A stretch of DNA of 37,332 nucleotides from Spirochaetia bacterium. GTDB taxonomy: Bacteria; Spirochaetota; Leptospiria; Turneriellales; JAOUFE01. The translations under genes and the position numbers were made by a program. The first letter of the stretch is position 1, and every line of letters begins with the position of its first letter. Below are positions 16,898 to 23,860 of this stretch, piece by piece. The stretch spans positions 1 through 37,332 of the forward strand of contig JAOUFE010000007.1 in NCBI GenBank assembly GCA_029858425.1, read 5' to 3'. The notes under the pieces are model-generated. The model ran no database searches. It had not been told where the DNA came from and worked only from the letters and a program-made list of their open reading frames with translations.

Positions 16898-16920
16898 AAT
16901 CTGCTGGATTTGCTGTTCAT

Positions 16921-16944
16921 TTATCGGAGTCCGGTATCCGATAA
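16921..16944 (+). promoter_or_regulatory. Hairpin just before the SUKH-like start codon
   Basis: Perfect 8-bp inverted repeat TTATCGGA (16921-16928) and TCCGATAA (16937-16944) with an 8-nt loop, ending seven bases before the ATG at 16952. The only ribosome-binding-like GGAG (16926-16929) lies inside the stem. It could limit translation, or be the end of the nuo transcript. No U-run follows. Confidence 0.45.
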
Positions 16945-16951
16945 TAACATA

Positions 16952-17482
16952 ATGGCGTCATTTTCAAAACGATCCGGAAAAAAAAAGGTTGAAAAAACAG
17001 AAGACCCTGCGGCATTCGCATATGAAGAACAGCTTCAACTGATTAAAAAAAATCTTTCAGCGCACAATGAAAAAGTGGAATTTCACGAGGCCAGTCACCA
17101 TGATTTATTTTATCTTCAATCTTGCAATATCCCGGAATCGATTATTGAGTTTTACAGAACTGCCGAGCCAGATGATGTTGTTGAAATTAACGATGCCCGA
17201 ATCTGGCCGGTTTCTATTTTAAAGCTGGAAAATGAAAAAATGGAACCAGGGAAAACCCTTTTTCCGTTTGGTTTTTTTGTAATTGGAACCACTCTCTATG
17301 GCGATTGCTATTGTCTGAATCTCAACAGCAAAAAAAAAGATGCGGAAGTCATTCTAGCCTGCCACGATGAGGTCGATGCTTATAACTCCATAGAGAACAT
17401 TCTTTCGAGCATAAAATTCGTGGCGCCGTCATTTCAGCATTTTCTGACCCTTTTTTCAAAATCAAAATTAAAAGTGGATTAA
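16952..17482 (+). CDS. SUKH (SMI1/KNR4)-like protein
   Basis: A 176-residue soluble protein. After a basic, low-complexity start (KRSGKKKVEKTED), the pattern IPESIIEFYR, WPVSILKLENE, FGFFVIGTTLYGDCYCLNL, a variable turn and SFQHFLTLF follows the SMI1/KNR4 (SUKH) fold. That family includes immunity proteins against contact-dependent toxins and other binding proteins. No toxin gene lies nearby, so an immunity role is not supported. The ATG at 16952 is used; the open frame extends to a TTG at 16910 inside poorly conserved sequence. The assignment is by pattern only. Confidence 0.55.
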   Translation: MASFSKRSGKKKVEKTEDPAAFAYEEQLQLIKKNLSAHNEKVEFHEASHHDLFYLQSCNIPESIIEFYRTAEPDDVVEINDARIWPVSILKLENEKMEPGKTLFPFGFFVIGTTLYGDCYCLNLNSKKKDAEVILACHDEVDAYNSIENILSSIKFVAPSFQHFLTLFSKSKLKVD

Positions 17483-17510: not shown

Positions 17511-17587
17511 GCGCGAGTGGCGCGAAGCCAGTCCCAAAACTGCGCTAATTTAATCATATTGAGTGAATTTCAAGTTCATGCCCAGGC
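17511..17587. repeat. Family 2 dispersed repeat, copy B
   Basis: Contains GCGCGAAGCCAG followed by TCCCAAAACTGCGC and, further on, TGAATTTCAAGTTCATGCCCA. These match copy C (18465-18595) closely. The left arm is degenerate (AATAAGCGCGAG), so the palindrome is partial. It directly abuts the family 1 copy at 17589. Confidence 0.6.
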
Positions 17588-17648: not shown

Positions 17649-18092
17649 TTATTCGGTTCCGACAACAAGATATGATTTATGGCTTTTCCATTCAAACGGG
17701 ATAGTGAAGACAGGAATTTTTAGAGGAAGGTGAATATTGTGGTTTGGCCCGGTAATTACCATGGGTACCGAAATCAGAAAATTATGTCCAAAAAAATGCT
17801 CTGCATTTCCTGAGATATTATTGGCTACCTCGCCGATGGCATCAAGGCGCAGGGTTTCGCTGGCTGTGCCAAGGTGCATGTCCTTGATCAGATCGTCCAG
17901 CATGCCCAGTGATGCCGTGACATAAATGCAGCCTTTTCTGTCGCCTGAAATTCCTATGACGCCGGTATAATCCAGAAAGACAAAATTATCATGTTGGGGA
18001 AAAGGAACGCCTACTGTCGGTTCTGCTCCGTCAAACTGACTAAAGTAGTGCATCACACCTTGAATAAATATTTTTAATTCTTCCTGTTTCAT
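17649..18092 (-). CDS. CheX-like chemotaxis-type phosphatase
   Basis: A 147-residue protein of the CheC/CheX/FliY fold. The catalytic ExxN motif is visible in DAIGEVANNISGN, with E88 and N91, and the second helix motif of CheC-type proteins is absent, as in CheX. CheX removes phosphate from CheY-like regulators. It is the last gene of the minus-strand operon, one base after the response regulator stop, so its likely partner is that regulator (inference). A G-rich ribosome-binding site precedes the ATG. Confidence 0.78.
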   Translation of the reverse strand: MKQEELKIFIQGVMHYFSQFDGAEPTVGVPFPQHDNFVFLDYTGVIGISGDRKGCIYVTASLGMLDDLIKDMHLGTASETLRLDAIGEVANNISGNAEHFFGHNFLISVPMVITGPNHNIHLPLKIPVFTIPFEWKSHKSYLVVGTE

Positions 18093-18093
18093 T

Positions 18094-18453
18094 TTATCCC
18101 CCGATTACTTTTTTTAACGTGTCTGTTAATTGATGCGCCTGTAGTGGCTTGATTAGATAAGCGGCGGCTCCTGCATTGACGGCTTTCACTACGGTAGCTT
18201 TGCTGGTCAAAGCCGAAATCATAATAATTTTGGCATCCGGATTAATTTCCAGCATTTCTTTGAGCGCCGCAAGGCCGTCCATCTCGGGCATGGTGATATC
18301 AAGAGTTACAATATCGGGTCTGTGAAATTTAAACAGCTCAATAGCTTCTCTTCCATTGGAGGCCTCGGCTACAATTTCCAGATCCGTAAGCTTCAAGTAG
18401 CGCTCTATCACCATTCTTACTATGGTAGAATCATCTACAATCATGACTTTCAT
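18094..18453 (-). CDS. CheY-like single-domain response regulator
   Basis: A 119-residue receiver domain with no output domain. All phosphorylation residues are present: acidic pair D7 and D8, phospho-acceptor D52 (TLDITMPEMDG), S80 and K102. It has a strong AAGGAGG ribosome-binding site (complement of 18458-18464). It lies between the histidine kinase and the CheX-like phosphatase, giving a full phosphorylation and dephosphorylation set. With no DNA-binding domain it probably acts through protein contacts. Confidence 0.92.
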   Translation of the reverse strand: MKVMIVDDSTIVRMVIERYLKLTDLEIVAEASNGREAIELFKFHRPDIVTLDITMPEMDGLAALKEMLEINPDAKIIMISALTSKATVVKAVNAGAAAYLIKPLQAHQLTDTLKKVIGG

Positions 18454-18464
18454 TTTTCCTCCTT

Positions 18465-18595
18465 ATCTTTCAGCCGGGGCATGAATTTCAATATTCACTT
18501 CAGAATCTATTAAAATGCGCAGTTTTGGGGCGCGAAGCCAGCCCCAAAACTGCGTTAGTTTACATCATTCTGACTGAATTTCGAGTTCATACCCA
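18465..18595. repeat. Family 2 palindromic MITE-like element, copy C (complete)
   Basis: A long imperfect inverted repeat. The perfect inner arms are CGCAGTTTTGGGG (18518-18530) and CCCCAAAACTGCG (18542-18554), with loop CGCGAAGCCAG. Homology continues outward, pairing the left arm from about 18476 with the right arm to about 18595. The direct octamer TCCTCCTT flanks it at 18457-18464 and 18596-18603. The right arm encodes the last residues and TAA (18555-18557) of the kinase gene; the left flank is the ribosome-binding site of the regulator gene. Confidence 0.7.
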
Positions 18596-20600
18596 TCCTC
18601 CTTTGAAGCGCCTTTGCTGGAAATATAATGTCAAATTCAGTAAATTTGTCGTGACCAAAATTTACTTTCAAATGCCCTCCCAGATTTCTGATTCTTTGCT
18701 TGATAATGTCCATGCCCATTCCTCGTCCTGAATGAAGCGTGGATTTTGCCGCAGTTGTAAAGCCTGGCTCAAAGGTTAACTTAATTAATCTGGATGTGTC
18801 CCATTCTGCAACGTCTGATTGTGATCCTTTTCCCATGGCCACAGCCTTTTGGCGAATTTTGTCAAAGTCAAAAGAACGGCCATCATCGCGGTAATATAGA
18901 TAAAAATCTTCTCCTTCAGGTTTCATCTTGAGATGAATCACTCCGGTTTCTTCTTTGCCCGACTTTAGTCTTGTTTCTGGATCTTCTATGCCATGCATTA
19001 ATGCGTTGCGCGTTAATTGAACCAGGATATCGCGCAATACATAGGCGTACTTGTTTGATACGCCTGTAAAATCAATTTCATCTGCAATTAACCGGACTTT
19101 TTTTCCGGATTCTGAGGCAATATTTTGCGCAAATTTATCTATTGCCCCGGGTAAGGCGGATAACGCAGATTTTGTATCAATTCCTTCCCTGCTTTGAAAT
19201 AGTTGAATACGCTTTATCAAATCTTTTAACTGACCATAAACTTCCTGGATTTTTGCCAGCTCATAAGCAACCGACAGAAAATTTTCCCAGGTCAAATTCT
19301 TGTTATCCCGCAGAAGGATAATTTGCTCTTCAAAGTCGTTGGCTTTTTTGGCAAGAAATTTTAATTCCAGCAAAGCGGCATTACCTTTTAAAGAATGAAC
19401 TGAGCGGAATATCGTTTCAATGGCAGCTTCCAGATTTTTATGATATTTCTCATCGCGTAAAACAGATTCAATTACATTAATTTCGGCTTCCACCCCATCC
19501 ATAAAGTCCTGCAGCAAAGCCGGGCCAATGTGCAGTATGGACAGCATCATCTGACTTTCCTGTTCGGCCTTGATTTCATTTTCACGCAATTGTCTTTCCA
19601 TTTGAACTTCTTTTGAAACATCTTTTACGCTGATTAAAAAATCTGAATTCTGGCGGGACTCTGAAATGCGCTTAAAGTTAAACTCCAGAAACTTGCTGAC
19701 ACCGCTTAACCCCGAAGGGATTGCGGCTTCTTCGCGCTCAAGAGGGTTTAAGTCGTGAATCATGGCTTCGTCGATATTGGGCTTTGAAAGCATGGAAAGG
19801 TATTCGTTCAGCTCTTCGATTTTTTTGGGGGGAAAATAGGACGACAATATATCAGTAAAATTATTCCCGGACAATTGGGAGTTCTCCAGGATCTTTTTTA
19901 CAGAATCGGACTGGTGCTCCCCGATAATATACTTGTCGTCGGTTTTATGAATGATAAATAAACCCTCATCCACCGAATCCATGATCGTGTCCTGTTCTTT
20001 TTTGGCCGCTTTCAACTGCCTGTTTGTAAAAAATTCTTTCCGGATCAGTTGAAAATGCACGCGATTAATGGCGACGGCAATGACAGCGGTGGAGGCCAGA
20101 AAATAAAGATTATTGACCAGAATATTTCTGTGGAATGGATTTGGAAAAATAAAATTAAGCCCCAGATAACTGCCTGATATTATCAGAGCGTTGATAACGG
20201 CATGATCAAATCCCCAGGGAATTAGAACTATAACGGCGATCGTAACAAGGTTGAGTCCGGCGTAATAACTTGAATCAAAACCTCCCAACTCCTGGGTCAT
20301 CCAGGAGATCATTAATCCAACTGCCGAAGCAATAAAATATCCATGTAGCGGCGCATATCTGGATGGTTTTGTTATACGCAAAAGTCCGTATTGAAGTACA
20401 AGCAAACATGTGATCAATGCCCGCCAAAATGCAAAATTTTTCAGCCATTCCGGCGGGATCATAAAGTAGTCCAGTACCAAAAATAATGGGATTAAAACAA
20501 AACCCAGTACGGTAAGAGTTTTTAACCAACTATGACGTATATCATTCAGATATTCCTTAAAGTCGTCCGTATCAGGAATGTTGCTTTTGCTATTCTTCAT
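18555..20600 (-). CDS. Six-TM sensor histidine kinase with Hpt and CheA-like ATPase domain
   Basis: A 681-residue membrane kinase. Six hydrophobic helices fill residues about 28-178 with little periplasmic sequence, suggesting it senses a lipophilic or membrane-borne signal. A PAS-like region (about 204-330) and a coiled linker follow. An Hpt-type histidine, H402 in RSVHSLKGNA, precedes a CheA-like catalytic domain: N-box RNALMHGIEDP (531-541), DDG at 572-574 and GRGMGMDI (625-632). The cognate regulator is the next gene. The start overlaps the methyltransferase stop (TAATG). The final 13 or so residues come from an inserted palindrome and are probably not ancestral. Confidence 0.85.
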   Translation of the reverse strand: MKNSKSNIPDTDDFKEYLNDIRHSWLKTLTVLGFVLIPLFLVLDYFMIPPEWLKNFAFWRALITCLLVLQYGLLRITKPSRYAPLHGYFIASAVGLMISWMTQELGGFDSSYYAGLNLVTIAVIVLIPWGFDHAVINALIISGSYLGLNFIFPNPFHRNILVNNLYFLASTAVIAVAINRVHFQLIRKEFFTNRQLKAAKKEQDTIMDSVDEGLFIIHKTDDKYIIGEHQSDSVKKILENSQLSGNNFTDILSSYFPPKKIEELNEYLSMLSKPNIDEAMIHDLNPLEREEAAIPSGLSGVSKFLEFNFKRISESRQNSDFLISVKDVSKEVQMERQLRENEIKAEQESQMMLSILHIGPALLQDFMDGVEAEINVIESVLRDEKYHKNLEAAIETIFRSVHSLKGNAALLELKFLAKKANDFEEQIILLRDNKNLTWENFLSVAYELAKIQEVYGQLKDLIKRIQLFQSREGIDTKSALSALPGAIDKFAQNIASESGKKVRLIADEIDFTGVSNKYAYVLRDILVQLTRNALMHGIEDPETRLKSGKEETGVIHLKMKPEGEDFYLYYRDDGRSFDFDKIRQKAVAMGKGSQSDVAEWDTSRLIKLTFEPGFTTAAKSTLHSGRGMGMDIIKQRIRNLGGHLKVNFGHDKFTEFDIIFPAKALQRRMGMNSKFSQNDVN

Positions 20601-22036
20601 TATTTTTCTCTTTGTATTATGGTGAACATTTGAGATCTCGTTGGTTCAAATTCGAGGGTGCATGTACTATTTTCCAGATCTTTTGACAATGCCAGAAATT
20701 CTTCCTCATTCCGGTAACACAGAACCCAGTCCAGCCAGTATTCCATATACGTGCGGCTGGGGTTATTTATATGATAATTTCCAATAGTCAGATGGCCTCC
20801 CGGTTTGAGCATTTGGTACAAATGTTCTGTCAGACGTTTGGCCATTCGATCGGCAAGATAGTCGTAGAGTCCCATGCTGTAAATAAAATCAAACTTCCCG
20901 ATTCCATTTTCCGGATGTGCAACACGCATTATTGTTCTGACAGATTCCATGTGAAAAATATAATGTACTTTTTTTGAAAATTTTTGCTCAATGCGGTTGA
21001 TGGTTTCCTTCGCATCCAGAAGAGCATTGTTGTCCTGATCGAGAAACGTAAAACTGTAACGATCAAAATCTTCCGGACTACGCAATAATTCTTCAAGTTC
21101 CCGGACAGGCCCGCATGCAATAGAAAGAATTTCAAGTTTTGTTTTATTTGAAGGACGCAGCTTGCTGTGCAATTCATTAATTTGATCGGCAATAAAAGTT
21201 TTGCGATTTCGTACAGCAGCTGCGGCCGGGGCTTCCAGGGGATGTTTGTGAAGCAATCTTGAAAAAATATTATCCCCAACATATTCATTATCATATATCA
21301 AATTGAGGGTAGCAGAATCTCCAGGATATCCCCTTGGTTTGGTATTGGTTCGATATAGTATTTTGGACATTGTAATAAAACTCCAAAATTGCCGCCGTAG
21401 ATAATAAGCATGGGTTTGATGTTCTGCGGGCGTGTAGTTTTTTGTCAGATTCTCTAATTCTGCCAGTTTTTCATTTAAAAACGAAAAAAACTTTTTACCC
21501 TCTTTTTGATAAATGATATTTTCAATTTTTTCATATATTTCTGCTTCCTCGCCGCAATAGTCAAGATATATCCTGTCAAAAAAACTTTTATAGGCATTTA
21601 GATCATAGTTTAAACCGCTTGTATAATCTTTGAACTTTGCATTTACTTTTGTCTTTTGCTGTAATATGAAGGGAAGGGTTGAGAAATATGTATTCAAATT
21701 GACTACTTTTTCTTCTGAGAATAATTCGCCTATATCATATACCTCATTTGTAAAGATTAAACGACCATCGAAATATGCATTTGGAGGCGGGGTAATAAAA
21801 CTGCATTGGCCTAATTGAACTTTGTTGTGTTTTAACTGAATTTCAATGGAAGTGAAACTTTGAGCATTCTCAGGGAATGCGCCGCTTCTATGTTTAAATA
21901 ACAGGGAACTTTTTGAGGCAAAGGCAACTTCTCCTTCAACGCATGTATCAGCACTTATTAATTTGGCCGGACATGTAAAACTCTCAGCAGAAGAAGGTTC
22001 TTGTAAACCTCCGGCGTTTTGGATATTTTTTTTCAT
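20600..22036 (-). CDS. PhcB-like SAM-dependent methyltransferase with PilZ-like N-terminal domain
   Basis: A 478-residue cytosolic protein. The N-terminal part (about 20-120) resembles the PilZ-like domain found in front of such enzymes (GRLIFTNEVYDIGELF, LPFILQQKTKVNAKFKDY). The C-terminal part is a class I methyltransferase: RGYPGD at 235-240 with AAAVRNRK after it, SAM-binding SIACGP at 305-310, LDQD at 332-335 and LKPGGHL at 410-416. RGYPGD and its surroundings are, from memory, a hallmark of the enzymes named for 3-hydroxypalmitate methyl ester (PhcB) synthesis. It is first in an operon with a kinase and regulator, as in phcBSR. The product is inferred. Confidence 0.72.
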   Translation of the reverse strand: MKKNIQNAGGLQEPSSAESFTCPAKLISADTCVEGEVAFASKSSLLFKHRSGAFPENAQSFTSIEIQLKHNKVQLGQCSFITPPPNAYFDGRLIFTNEVYDIGELFSEEKVVNLNTYFSTLPFILQQKTKVNAKFKDYTSGLNYDLNAYKSFFDRIYLDYCGEEAEIYEKIENIIYQKEGKKFFSFLNEKLAELENLTKNYTPAEHQTHAYYLRRQFWSFITMSKILYRTNTKPRGYPGDSATLNLIYDNEYVGDNIFSRLLHKHPLEAPAAAAVRNRKTFIADQINELHSKLRPSNKTKLEILSIACGPVRELEELLRSPEDFDRYSFTFLDQDNNALLDAKETINRIEQKFSKKVHYIFHMESVRTIMRVAHPENGIGKFDFIYSMGLYDYLADRMAKRLTEHLYQMLKPGGHLTIGNYHINNPSRTYMEYWLDWVLCYRNEEEFLALSKDLENSTCTLEFEPTRSQMFTIIQREK

Positions 22037-22363: not shown

Positions 22364-23860
22364 ATGAAAAAAGTTATGATAACGTTGGCTATGATGCTCA
22401 TTAGCGCTTCCATTTACGGGGAAGGTAAGTGTGCAGAAGCCGGAGGTTGTAAAGACGGGAAAGGAAAATATATTTTTAATGACGGGGTTTACGAAGGTGA
22501 GTTTAAAGACAGTAAACTGAACGGTCATGGAAAATATACTTATTCTGACGGCAGGATTTACGATGGTTCGTGGGTGAACAGCGAGCCATCCGGAAAGGCG
22601 AAATATACTTTTAAAAACGGCGATATTTATGAAGGGGACTTTGTAACTGGCAAAATGACAGGAAAAGGCAAGATAACCTTTAAAGCCAATGGTAAATATG
22701 AAGGCGACTTTATCGACGGTAAAAAATCAGGTAGCGGAGTCTACACAACGAAAGAAGGCGAAGTATATTCCGGACAGTTTCTAAATGACCTGAGAAATGG
22801 AAAGGGGAAATATTCCTATAAAGATGGTAGCATTTATGAAGGTGAGTTTAGCAATGATAAAATCACCGGTAAAGGTAAAATAACCTATAAAAACGGCGAT
22901 GCTTATGAAGGCGACTTTGTCGACAGTCAAAAGGAAGGCAAGGGGAAATATAGCTACAAAAACGGCGATGTTTATGAAGGCGACTTTAAGGCAAACAACA
23001 TTACTGGCAAAGGCAAATTTATCTATAAAACAGCCGCTCAGATTTATGAGGGTGATTTTCTGGAAGGTAAACAAACCGGGTTTGGCAAATTAACCTATAA
23101 AAACGGCGATACCTATGATGGTCAATTCTTAAACGATTCAAAAAATGGCAAAGGAAAATATACCTACAAGAATGGCGATGTGTATGAAGGTGATTACCTG
23201 GACAATAAGAGAATTGGGCATGGAAAGCTTGCCTTTAAAAGCGGCAATACCTATGACGGTGAATTTGCCGATGAAAAGATGACCGGAAAGGGAAAATATA
23301 TTTTTAACGATGGCCGCATTTATGAAGGCGATTTTGTCGATGGGCAATGGAACGGTCGAGGAAGATATACGTTAAAAACCGGCGATGTTTACGAGGGCGA
23401 TTTTAAAAATGGCGTCCAGGAAGGCAAAGGAAAATATACCTTTAAAAGCGGCGATATTTACGAAGGCAATTTTCTTGCAGATCAAATTACCGGGCATGGG
23501 AAATTAACTTTTAAGAGCGGCAATGTTTACGATGGGGAATTTAAAAATGGCAAACAAAATGGCGCTGGTAAATTAATTTATAAAAGCGGTGATTCTTACG
23601 AGTGTACCTGGATAGAGAATCAATGTGCTGGCGGGAAAGGGAAATATACCTGGGCAGATGGAAATGTATATGAAGGCGATTTTAAAAATGATATCCCGGA
23701 TGGGAAAGGTACATTAACTTACAAAAGCGGCACTGTTTACGAAGGCGGGTTTAAAAATGGCAAACAAAATGGCGCCGGTAAATTAATCTACAAAAGTGGA
23801 AAAGTTGCAGAAGGTAACTGGAAAGACGGGGTAAAGCAAAAGGTGGATATTAATTTTTAA
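22364..23860 (+). CDS. Secreted MORN-repeat protein (20 repeats)
   Basis: A 498-residue protein with a likely signal peptide (MKKVMITLAMMLISASIYG). The rest is about 20 MORN repeats of 23 residues, of the form GKGKYTYKNGDVYEGDF plus a six-residue turn. MORN repeats make an extended beta-hairpin rod and serve as scaffold or lipid/protein-binding surfaces; no enzymatic domain is present. Repeats 16-17 and 19-20 share FKNGKQNGAGKLIYKSG almost base for base (about 23539-23589 and 23749-23799), a recent internal duplication. A strong AAGGAG fixes the start. The gene stands alone. Location after export (periplasm or surface) is not clear. Confidence 0.85.
   Translation: MKKVMITLAMMLISASIYGEGKCAEAGGCKDGKGKYIFNDGVYEGEFKDSKLNGHGKYTYSDGRIYDGSWVNSEPSGKAKYTFKNGDIYEGDFVTGKMTGKGKITFKANGKYEGDFIDGKKSGSGVYTTKEGEVYSGQFLNDLRNGKGKYSYKDGSIYEGEFSNDKITGKGKITYKNGDAYEGDFVDSQKEGKGKYSYKNGDVYEGDFKANNITGKGKFIYKTAAQIYEGDFLEGKQTGFGKLTYKNGDTYDGQFLNDSKNGKGKYTYKNGDVYEGDYLDNKRIGHGKLAFKSGNTYDGEFADEKMTGKGKYIFNDGRIYEGDFVDGQWNGRGRYTLKTGDVYEGDFKNGVQEGKGKYTFKSGDIYEGNFLADQITGHGKLTFKSGNVYDGEFKNGKQNGAGKLIYKSGDSYECTWIENQCAGGKGKYTWADGNVYEGDFKNDIPDGKGTLTYKSGTVYEGGFKNGKQNGAGKLIYKSGKVAEGNWKDGVKQKVDINF

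Follow-up and report, generated by a model that had tools for sequence, protein, structure and literature searches.

A putative self-signalling operon in a spirochaete: a PhcB/PhcS-related synthase and receptor with a chemotaxis-type output

What kind of signalling system is encoded by a methyltransferase, a membrane kinase, a lone receiver domain and a CheX-type phosphatase lying side by side in a spirochaete genome? The four genes occupy positions 17,649 to 22,036 of a 37,332-nucleotide stretch (the window; contig JAOUFE010000007.1 of a Spirochaetia bacterium), and a first-pass annotation made from the letters alone had read them as a PhcBSR-like quorum-sensing operon with an added CheX. Its inventory of genes agrees with the open reading frames, motifs and Pfam matches. 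In order of transcription, all on the minus strand, these are a SAM methyltransferase of the PhcB superfamily (MT; 20600..22036, 478 aa, with RGYPGD at residues 235-240 and SIACGP at residues 305-310), which is a putative signal synthase; a sensor kinase (18555..20600, 681 aa); a single-domain CheY-like response regulator (18094..18453, 119 aa; Response_reg 104 bits, cut-off 30.2) that has all phosphorylation residues (in DDS, LDITMP and YLIKP) and no output domain; and a CheX-type CheY-P phosphatase (17649..18092, 147 aa; PF13690, 58.5 bits, cut-off 27). The ExxN motif of the latter is intact (E88 and N91, in GEVANN), and both residues align with those of a solved CheX-like structure (7.5e-14). 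The kinase consists of a six-helix (6TM) receptor domain (residues 1-210; 19971..20600, minus strand), a PAS-like linker, an HPt domain (residues 362-464, PF01627; 35.2 bits, cut-off 24.6) with H402 in the motif HSLKGN, and a CheA-like HATPase domain (residues 524-662, with NALMHG and GRGMGMD; HATPase_c 33.2 bits, cut-off 26.4). Pfam finds neither a HisKA match nor a CheW-like domain in the kinase, whose phospho-acceptor is H402 of the HPt domain.

The genes had also been described as lying on one strand and joined by overlaps except at an inserted repeat. The shared strand stands, but the only overlap in the operon is a single base between MT and kinase (TAATG); there is one base between the receiver gene and the CheX gene, and 101 nt separate kinase and receiver (18454..18554, minus strand). 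This gap contains a 14-bp GC-rich hairpin (stem-loop ~18518-18554), a 66-nt stretch of it folding at -30.6 kcal/mol (z -6.3). No consensus terminator was called at the hairpin, which is possibly an attenuator or a processing site. A repeat is indeed present, in the form of two ~70-bp direct copies that bracket the CheY-CheX pair, one at 18529..18598 and one downstream of cheX at 17519..17587, made up of the kinase 3' end and half of the hairpin. Because the repeat core is found only twice in the whole genome, we rule out a dispersed element as its origin.

The likeness of the MT to PhcB, for which a profile search had been proposed as the check, is borne out at a distance. Against the PhcB set from phcBSRQ operons, hhalign returns probability 100 (E 2.2e-39, 27% identity over 288 columns), and BLASTP aligns 256 aa at 29% identity. 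Sequence comparison thus identifies the MT as a PhcB homologue at the level of the superfamily, while identity of only 27-29% means that its substrate and product may differ from those of PhcB. Its predicted structure (pLDDT 91.5) comprises an N-terminal beta-barrel, a helical middle domain and a C-terminal Rossmann domain. The barrel may be called PilZ-like by analogy with a distant family member (L103) whose N-terminus matches PilZ above the Pfam cut-off; the N-terminus of the window MT itself has no Pfam match, PilZ included. In the MT tree the Phc clade (support 100) has MTs of Polyangia as its nearest neighbours, and the window MT falls outside it, in a spirochaete SpoIIE-linked clade (97) and within a 50-row clade (100) that stands for the MT subfamily of the RsbW-STAS-MT-6TM-SpoIIE cassette. 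All 6TM-linked MTs lie on one side of a quick tree (support 92).

The receptor domain tells a similar story. The six membrane helices reported earlier are found in a model of residues 1-210 (mean pLDDT 94.1), and its predicted fold is most like the membrane domains of ImcA and adenylyl cyclases: the top Foldseek matches are ImcA (probability 1.00), Rv1625c (0.99) and human AC5 (1.00), with TM-scores by query of 0.67-0.68 to ImcA and human AC5. Note that the corresponding E-values are weak (0.005-0.07, best 0.0046). The suggested kinship with PhcS holds for this domain, in that a 6TM profile built without PhcS recovers 10 PhcS at 7e-7 to 9e-15 and finds the PhcS of one further locus (L153) at 2e-11. 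By tree the window 6TM belongs to class A, within a 50-row class A clade (96); it is not firmly grouped with the 6TM domains of local spirochaete 6TM-SpoIIE proteins, although such a grouping is not rejected (p-AU 0.12). A shared origin with the 6TM-CheA kinases of two other loci (L067 and L071) is ruled out, their 6TM domains being of class B. Cyclase membrane domains have been reported to be lipid receptors (PMC11606603, PMC12505454). Against the self-signalling reading set out below, methyl oleate was inactive on Rv1625c, where a free carboxyl seemed to be needed (PMC12505454).

In which company do such MTs travel elsewhere? A 6TM gene lies on the same strand in 62 of 80 homologous MT loci, and within 300 bp in 58 of them. 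The expectation that homologues should adjoin a sensor kinase therefore holds for the 6TM sensor but mostly fails for the histidine kinase, the usual neighbours being a PP2C phosphatase and partner-switch proteins. The nearest kin of the window MT are members of a cassette of the order RsbW-STAS-MT-6TM-SpoIIE, which is spread over about eight phyla and apparently undescribed: we found no description of it in the literature, and a 2026 quorum-sensing review names PhcB only for Ralstonia. Outputs at the equivalent position vary between SpoIIE, cyclase, MCP, HisKA hybrid and CheA-type proteins; 6TM-cyclases, for example, stand beside MT homologues in Bdellovibrionota, Myxococcota and Leptospirales. 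The two outcomes that had been named in advance as damaging to the earlier reading, an MT that groups with unrelated enzymes or homologues that usually do not adjoin a kinase and regulator, were not found outright. Apparent MT-6TM-output fusions in four high-GC loci (L081, L091, L099 and L104) proved on six-frame HMM mapping to be wrong-frame ORF artefacts. Plasmid searches with the MT returned mainly rhizobial stand-alone MTs, with no 6TM neighbour in the loci that were opened. MT and 6TM distances correlate well (r 0.79), but MT and RsbW distances do so equally (0.78), and these figures do not separate co-evolution from co-inheritance.

A six-frame search of the window yields no SpoIIE/PP2C, RsbW or STAS gene. 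The same genome does, however, keep the canonical set elsewhere, with MT, RsbW and STAS on one contig (C3) and 6TM-SpoIIE on another (C39), so two channels of this kind probably operate side by side in the cell. The transmitter half of the window kinase has different affinities. Residues 193-667 best match kinases that bear other sensors and are followed by CheY and then CheX, and this kinase-CheY-CheX order occurs, with no MT, at the three closest transmitters, all from spirochaetes. Because the PAS-HPt-HATPase half matches spirochaete kinases of this kind, the locus is a chimera: judged from sequence affinities, an MT-6TM pair derived from the RsbW-STAS-MT-6TM-SpoIIE cassette was joined to an existing three-gene spirochaete module that supplied PAS-HPt-HATPase, CheY and CheX. 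CheX therefore arrived with the kinase, and the idea that it is an addition must be abandoned in favour of a standing module. That the genes form a genuine PhcBSR-type operon to which CheX was added is accordingly very improbable. The MT and 6TM domains are homologous to PhcB and PhcS, as that reading demands, but the MT belongs to the SpoIIE-cassette clade, PhcR and PhcQ are absent, an HPt domain of CheA type replaces HisKA, and CheY and CheX travel with the transmitter; tree and gene content both contradict the placement.

How might such an operon work? We consider it slightly more likely than not that the four genes serve self-signalling, their synthase and receptor belonging to the PhcB/PhcS superfamily and their output having been exchanged. 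By extension from PhcB, the MT would make a membrane-soluble molecule, most plausibly a methylated (hydroxy) fatty-acid derivative, and the kinase 6TM domain would bind it. Binding would alter autophosphorylation of the HPt/HATPase unit at H402, from which phosphate would pass to the single-domain CheY. Going by known CheA/CheX biochemistry, CheX would then strip the phosphate from CheY, since kinases of the HPt type do not have the customary phosphatase activity. The putative ligand is likely a lipid signal used in autocrine or quorum fashion, and like the first-pass annotation we infer its fatty-acid origin from sequence. The putative fast-reset output through CheY and CheX, also proposed there, remains reasonable; because the genome encodes FliM, the flagellar switch is one candidate target of CheY. 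We know of no member outside the Phc systems with an established ligand, product or phosphotransfer.

Two scenarios retain the MT next to its receptor without any communication between cells, and we regard each as unlikely. The MT might be a CheR-like protein methyltransferase whose task is adaptation: in a circuit closed within the cell, it would adjust the neighbouring sensor or that sensor's partners. It has a weak Pfam CheR match (16.3 bits, below cut-off) and a weak match to CheR1 structures (E 0.009), MTs of the family nearly always adjoin a sensor, and some members bear regulatory domains that act inside the cell (PilZ or cNMP-binding, for example). However, the CheR likeness is confined to a Rossmann segment of ~45 residues common to many methyltransferases, the fold search returns mostly small-molecule methyltransferases, and PhcB proteins, the sole characterised relatives, reportedly synthesise 3-hydroxy fatty acid methyl esters (PMC6989110, PMC11960443). 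Alternatively, the MT might make a membrane-resident lipid or envelope modification, with the 6TM domain reporting membrane state (fluidity or the fatty-acid pool) rather than cell density, in the service of homeostasis. That adenylyl-cyclase 6TM domains answer to ordinary fatty acids (PMC11606603, PMC12505454) would fit, as would the fact that no export system was seen adjoining the operon. Against this, autoinducer systems typically pair each receptor with a dedicated synthase encoded nearby, and the one tested member, Ralstonia Phc, releases an MT product that acts on other cells (PMC6989110).

If self-signalling is the right reading, its reach extends beyond this locus. What ligands adenylyl-cyclase-type 6TM domains bind is a long-standing question. 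With an autoinducer-synthase homologue directly beside a cyclase-fold 6TM domain, gene order assigns to each receptor a candidate enzyme for making its ligand, and the question becomes testable. The occurrence of MT-6TM pairs with differing outputs across many phyla suggests a widespread, undescribed sensing of a self-made fatty signal. The evidence seems to us evenly balanced on the wider proposition that Ralstonia PhcB/PhcS belongs, as a single branch, to a large and so far undescribed signalling superfamily spanning about ten phyla. Its members would have a dedicated lipid-signal MT encoded beside an adenylyl-cyclase-type 6TM receptor and would swap outputs freely among PP2C partner switch, cyclase, MCP, histidine kinase and CheA-CheY-CheX. 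The window would then show such a swap directly, its synthase and receptor being the second pair of this cell and connected to a module of chemotaxis type. If true, methyl-ester-type cell-cell signalling would extend from one plant-associated proteobacterial group to many phyla, and the window would exemplify a receptor-synthase pair rewired to a new output.

Among known systems, phcBSRQ of Ralstonia and Cupriavidus shares with the window a homologous MT directly before a 6TM sensor kinase and downstream receiver proteins without a DNA-binding domain. The reference operons have the order phcB-S-R-Q, and PhcS is a HisKA kinase with its histidine at position 230, in agreement with published R. 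pseudosolanacearum (PMC11960443), whereas the window kinase is of HPt/CheA type. PhcR is a receiver-kinase and PhcQ an extended receiver; in the window only the single 119-aa CheY and CheX lie downstream, and the MT is of another clade. Compared with RsbU/RsbW/RsbV and SiaABCD, the cassette of the nearest MT relatives likewise has an RsbW-like ATPase, a STAS/SiaC-like protein and a SpoIIE phosphatase, but the classical modules contain neither MT nor 6TM receptor; at the window locus neither such a phosphatase output nor either of the partner-switch genes is present, a phosphorelay taking their place. CqsA and LqsA are PLP-dependent enzymes, not methyltransferases, and CqsS and LqsS have classical histidine-kinase cores, unlike the window kinase. 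The pairs CqsA/CqsS and LqsA/LqsS nevertheless resemble the window, by literature rather than by sequence, in combining a synthase with a 6TM receptor kinase that responds to a lipophilic signal (PMC4821796). With CheA-CheY-CheX of spirochaetes and Thermotoga the window has in common an HPt/HATPase kinase, a CheY and an ExxN-bearing CheX phosphatase, but its kinase is membrane-bound, with a 6TM receptor and PAS-like linker of its own in a protein without a Pfam CheW-like domain, and its operon includes an MT. Class III adenylyl cyclases (Rv1625c, mammalian AC5/8/9) and ImcA, finally, have a 6TM fold like that predicted for the window receptor; sequence likeness is weak, the output in the window is a phosphorelay kinase, and the adjacent gene encodes a putative synthase of the ligand.

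The operon at 17649-22036 on the minus strand encodes a 478-aa methyltransferase (MT), a 681-aa membrane kinase whose residues 1-210 form a six-helix receptor domain (6TM), a 119-aa CheY-like receiver and a 147-aa CheX protein. Hpt, HATPase_c, Response_reg and CheX all score above the Pfam cut-off, the HPt histidine of the kinase being H402 and the catalytic ExxN of CheX being intact (E88, N91); for the MT, Pfam names generic class I methyltransferase models. The motifs listed in the first-pass annotation are all found in these proteins. Its account of genes joined by overlaps except at an inserted repeat holds for the MT and kinase genes, which share one base, but not for the receiver and CheX genes, which are separated by one base. 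The 101-nt gap between kinase and receiver holds a 14-bp hairpin (z -6.3). The operon has two neighbours: divergent from it, 22364-23860 encodes a protein that begins like a signal peptide and consists almost entirely of MORN repeats (19 matches), and convergent with it, 16910-17482 encodes a member of the SMI1/KNR4 (SUKH-1) family, which is often tied to toxin immunity.

A scan for relatives of the METHYLTRANSFERASE, using one genome per species, yielded 80 named loci, in which we called 6TM neighbours with a 6TM-domain profile in six frames. Of the 80, 62 have a same-strand 6TM domain, no more than 300 bp away in 58, and 43 loci also contain an RsbW-like ATPase, a STAS/SiaC-like protein and a SpoIIE phosphatase. 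This SpoIIE cassette (RsbW-STAS-MT-6TM-SpoIIE) occurs in Thermodesulfobacteriota, Myxococcota, Neomarinimicrobiota, Spirochaetota, Bacteroidota, SAR324 and Pseudomonadota; note that Calditrichota is counted too, its locus ending after the 6TM domain. Other arrangements are MT-6TM-cyclase in Bdellovibrionota, MT-6TM-HisKA-receiver in Polyangia and, in one spirochaete of the same class, MT and 6TM-HAMP-MCP as a divergent pair. Three loci (L031, L116, L130) have no match to the 6TM profile yet carry a multi-helix membrane protein directly 3' of the MT. The MT tree places most of the MTs that lack a 6TM-type neighbour (cyanobacteria, mycobacteria, Gemmatimonadota, cNMP-binding fusions) on its opposite side.

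In a sister group of the MT (L032-L037, L156) an N-terminal cyclic-nucleotide-binding domain replaces the beta-barrel and there is no 6TM neighbour; these are apparently cNMP-regulated methyltransferases. One member (L103 5710-7176) has an N-terminal PilZ domain above the Pfam cut-off, which suggests that c-di-GMP may control MT activity in part of the family. Stand-alone relatives on Rhizobium and Sinorhizobium plasmids (L048, L049, L050) are divergent from an adjoining GGDEF/EAL protein gene, two stop codons break the MT gene of Leptospiraceae KatS3mg129 (L030 5882-7294) upstream of an intact cyclase gene, and a related MT domain (H59) lies within an annotated type I polyketide synthase on Enterobacter ludwigii plasmid NZ_CP134634.1 (121048-121830).

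Where, then, did the window operon come from? Over residues 193-662, its kinase shares 46% identity with that of another spirochaete of the same class; two kinases from the same order match it at 38-39% across roughly that region. The three closest transmitters (L199, L200, L201) show no match to the window-type 6TM profile, and downstream of all three kinases come CheY and CheX, in that order, so that CheX is not the addition it was first taken for. On these sequence comparisons, the operon is most simply read as a chimera in which a kinase-CheY-CheX module that already existed contributed the transmitter, and a SpoIIE cassette the MT-6TM pair fused to it. The repeat reported as inserted does exist, but it is a stretch of about 70 bp made of the kinase 3' end and half of the hairpin, with a second copy downstream of cheX. 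Direct repeats of the kinase tail (17519-17587 and 18529-18598) thus lie on either side of the CheY-CheX pair, and a genome-wide search found no other copy of the repeat core; the repeats may be what is left of the recombination event by which the modules were joined. The same parts have been joined a second time, in two spirochaetes where a divergent CheY-CheX-6TM(HPt kinase) set adjoins a SpoIIE cassette (L067 1494-4481, L071 10181-13135). Like the window operon, these sets combine 6TM, CheA-type kinase, CheY and CheX, whereas the 6TM class and the gene order differ.

The window genome, a 2.65-Mb draft in 220 contigs, also encodes a canonical MT on contig C3, together with RsbW and three STAS-like genes (L021 6425-9441), and a lone 6TM-SpoIIE gene on contig C39 (L045 4393-5730). 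The two are adjacent in a sister species (L023); the receptor gene has moved away from its MT set in the window genome. Since the two MTs of this genome are 43% identical and its two 6TM domains 47%, they likely constitute two parallel channels of different specificity in one cell.

The demonstrated part of the mechanism comprises homologies, gene linkage, intact catalytic residues and module composition. Beyond this, the MT would make a fatty-acid-derived signal and the 6TM domain would sense it, H402 would feed phosphate to CheY, and CheX would reset CheY. Since kinases of the HPt type lack DHp phosphatase activity, a dedicated phosphatase is a sensible part of such a system. As FliM is encoded in the genome, the operon may possibly control motility. 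In the AlphaFold model of the MT (pLDDT 91.5), a beta-barrel at the N-terminus is followed by a helical middle domain and then by a Rossmann domain; a rival view is that the MT is a CheR-like protein methyltransferase, and the top matches in its fold search are mostly small-molecule methyltransferases. Another rival would make the MT-6TM operon a membrane-homeostasis sensor. The 6TM domain is modelled as six helices (pLDDT 94), and Foldseek places ImcA, Rv1625c and human AC5 first, with AC8 and AC9 further down; the matches have weak E-values (0.005 to 1.5), but ImcA, Rv1625c, AC5 and AC8 reach a probability of 0.95-1.00, against 0.47 for AC9. Pfam AC_N matches two second-class 6TM proteins at 8e-5 and 0.0015, short of its cut-off. 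Cyclase membrane domains have been reported to be lipid receptors (PMC11606603; PMC12505454), and a cyclase can be driven by a quorum-sensing 6TM (PMC4821796). Methyl oleate, however, had no activity on Rv1625c (PMC12505454), which calls for caution.

We found no description of the MT-6TM-SpoIIE cassette, or of the family as a whole, in the open-access literature, and this superfamily view outweighs the window operon in importance. A known relative is the Phc quorum-sensing operon of Ralstonia and Cupriavidus, for which reference operons were identified by homology rather than by the Ralstonia name (L153 plus ten genomes of its family, L178-L187). Their order is MT, 6TM-HisKA kinase, receiver-kinase and PhcQ-like receiver, the contig of L179 ending after the kinase; in the L153 kinase the histidine that accepts the phosphate sits at position 230, in agreement with the published PhcS of R. 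pseudosolanacearum (PMC11960443). Profile comparison matches window-type MTs to the PhcB set with probability 100 (E 2.2e-39, 27% identity across 288 columns), a comparison that the first-pass annotation had proposed, and a 6TM profile built without PhcS matches PhcS at 7e-7 to 9e-15. By these profile matches, PhcB is a homologue of the MT, and the receptor domain shares its ancestry with PhcS. The label "PhcBSR-like" is right to that extent but does not extend to descent within the PhcB line: in the MT tree, a quick tree, the PhcB proteins make up a separate clade close to Polyangia and the window MT groups with spirochaete SpoIIE-linked MTs (support 97), and the window 6TM lies inside the SpoIIE-linked class A of the 6TM tree (support 96). 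The window operon is a variant, not described before, of a known kind of system.
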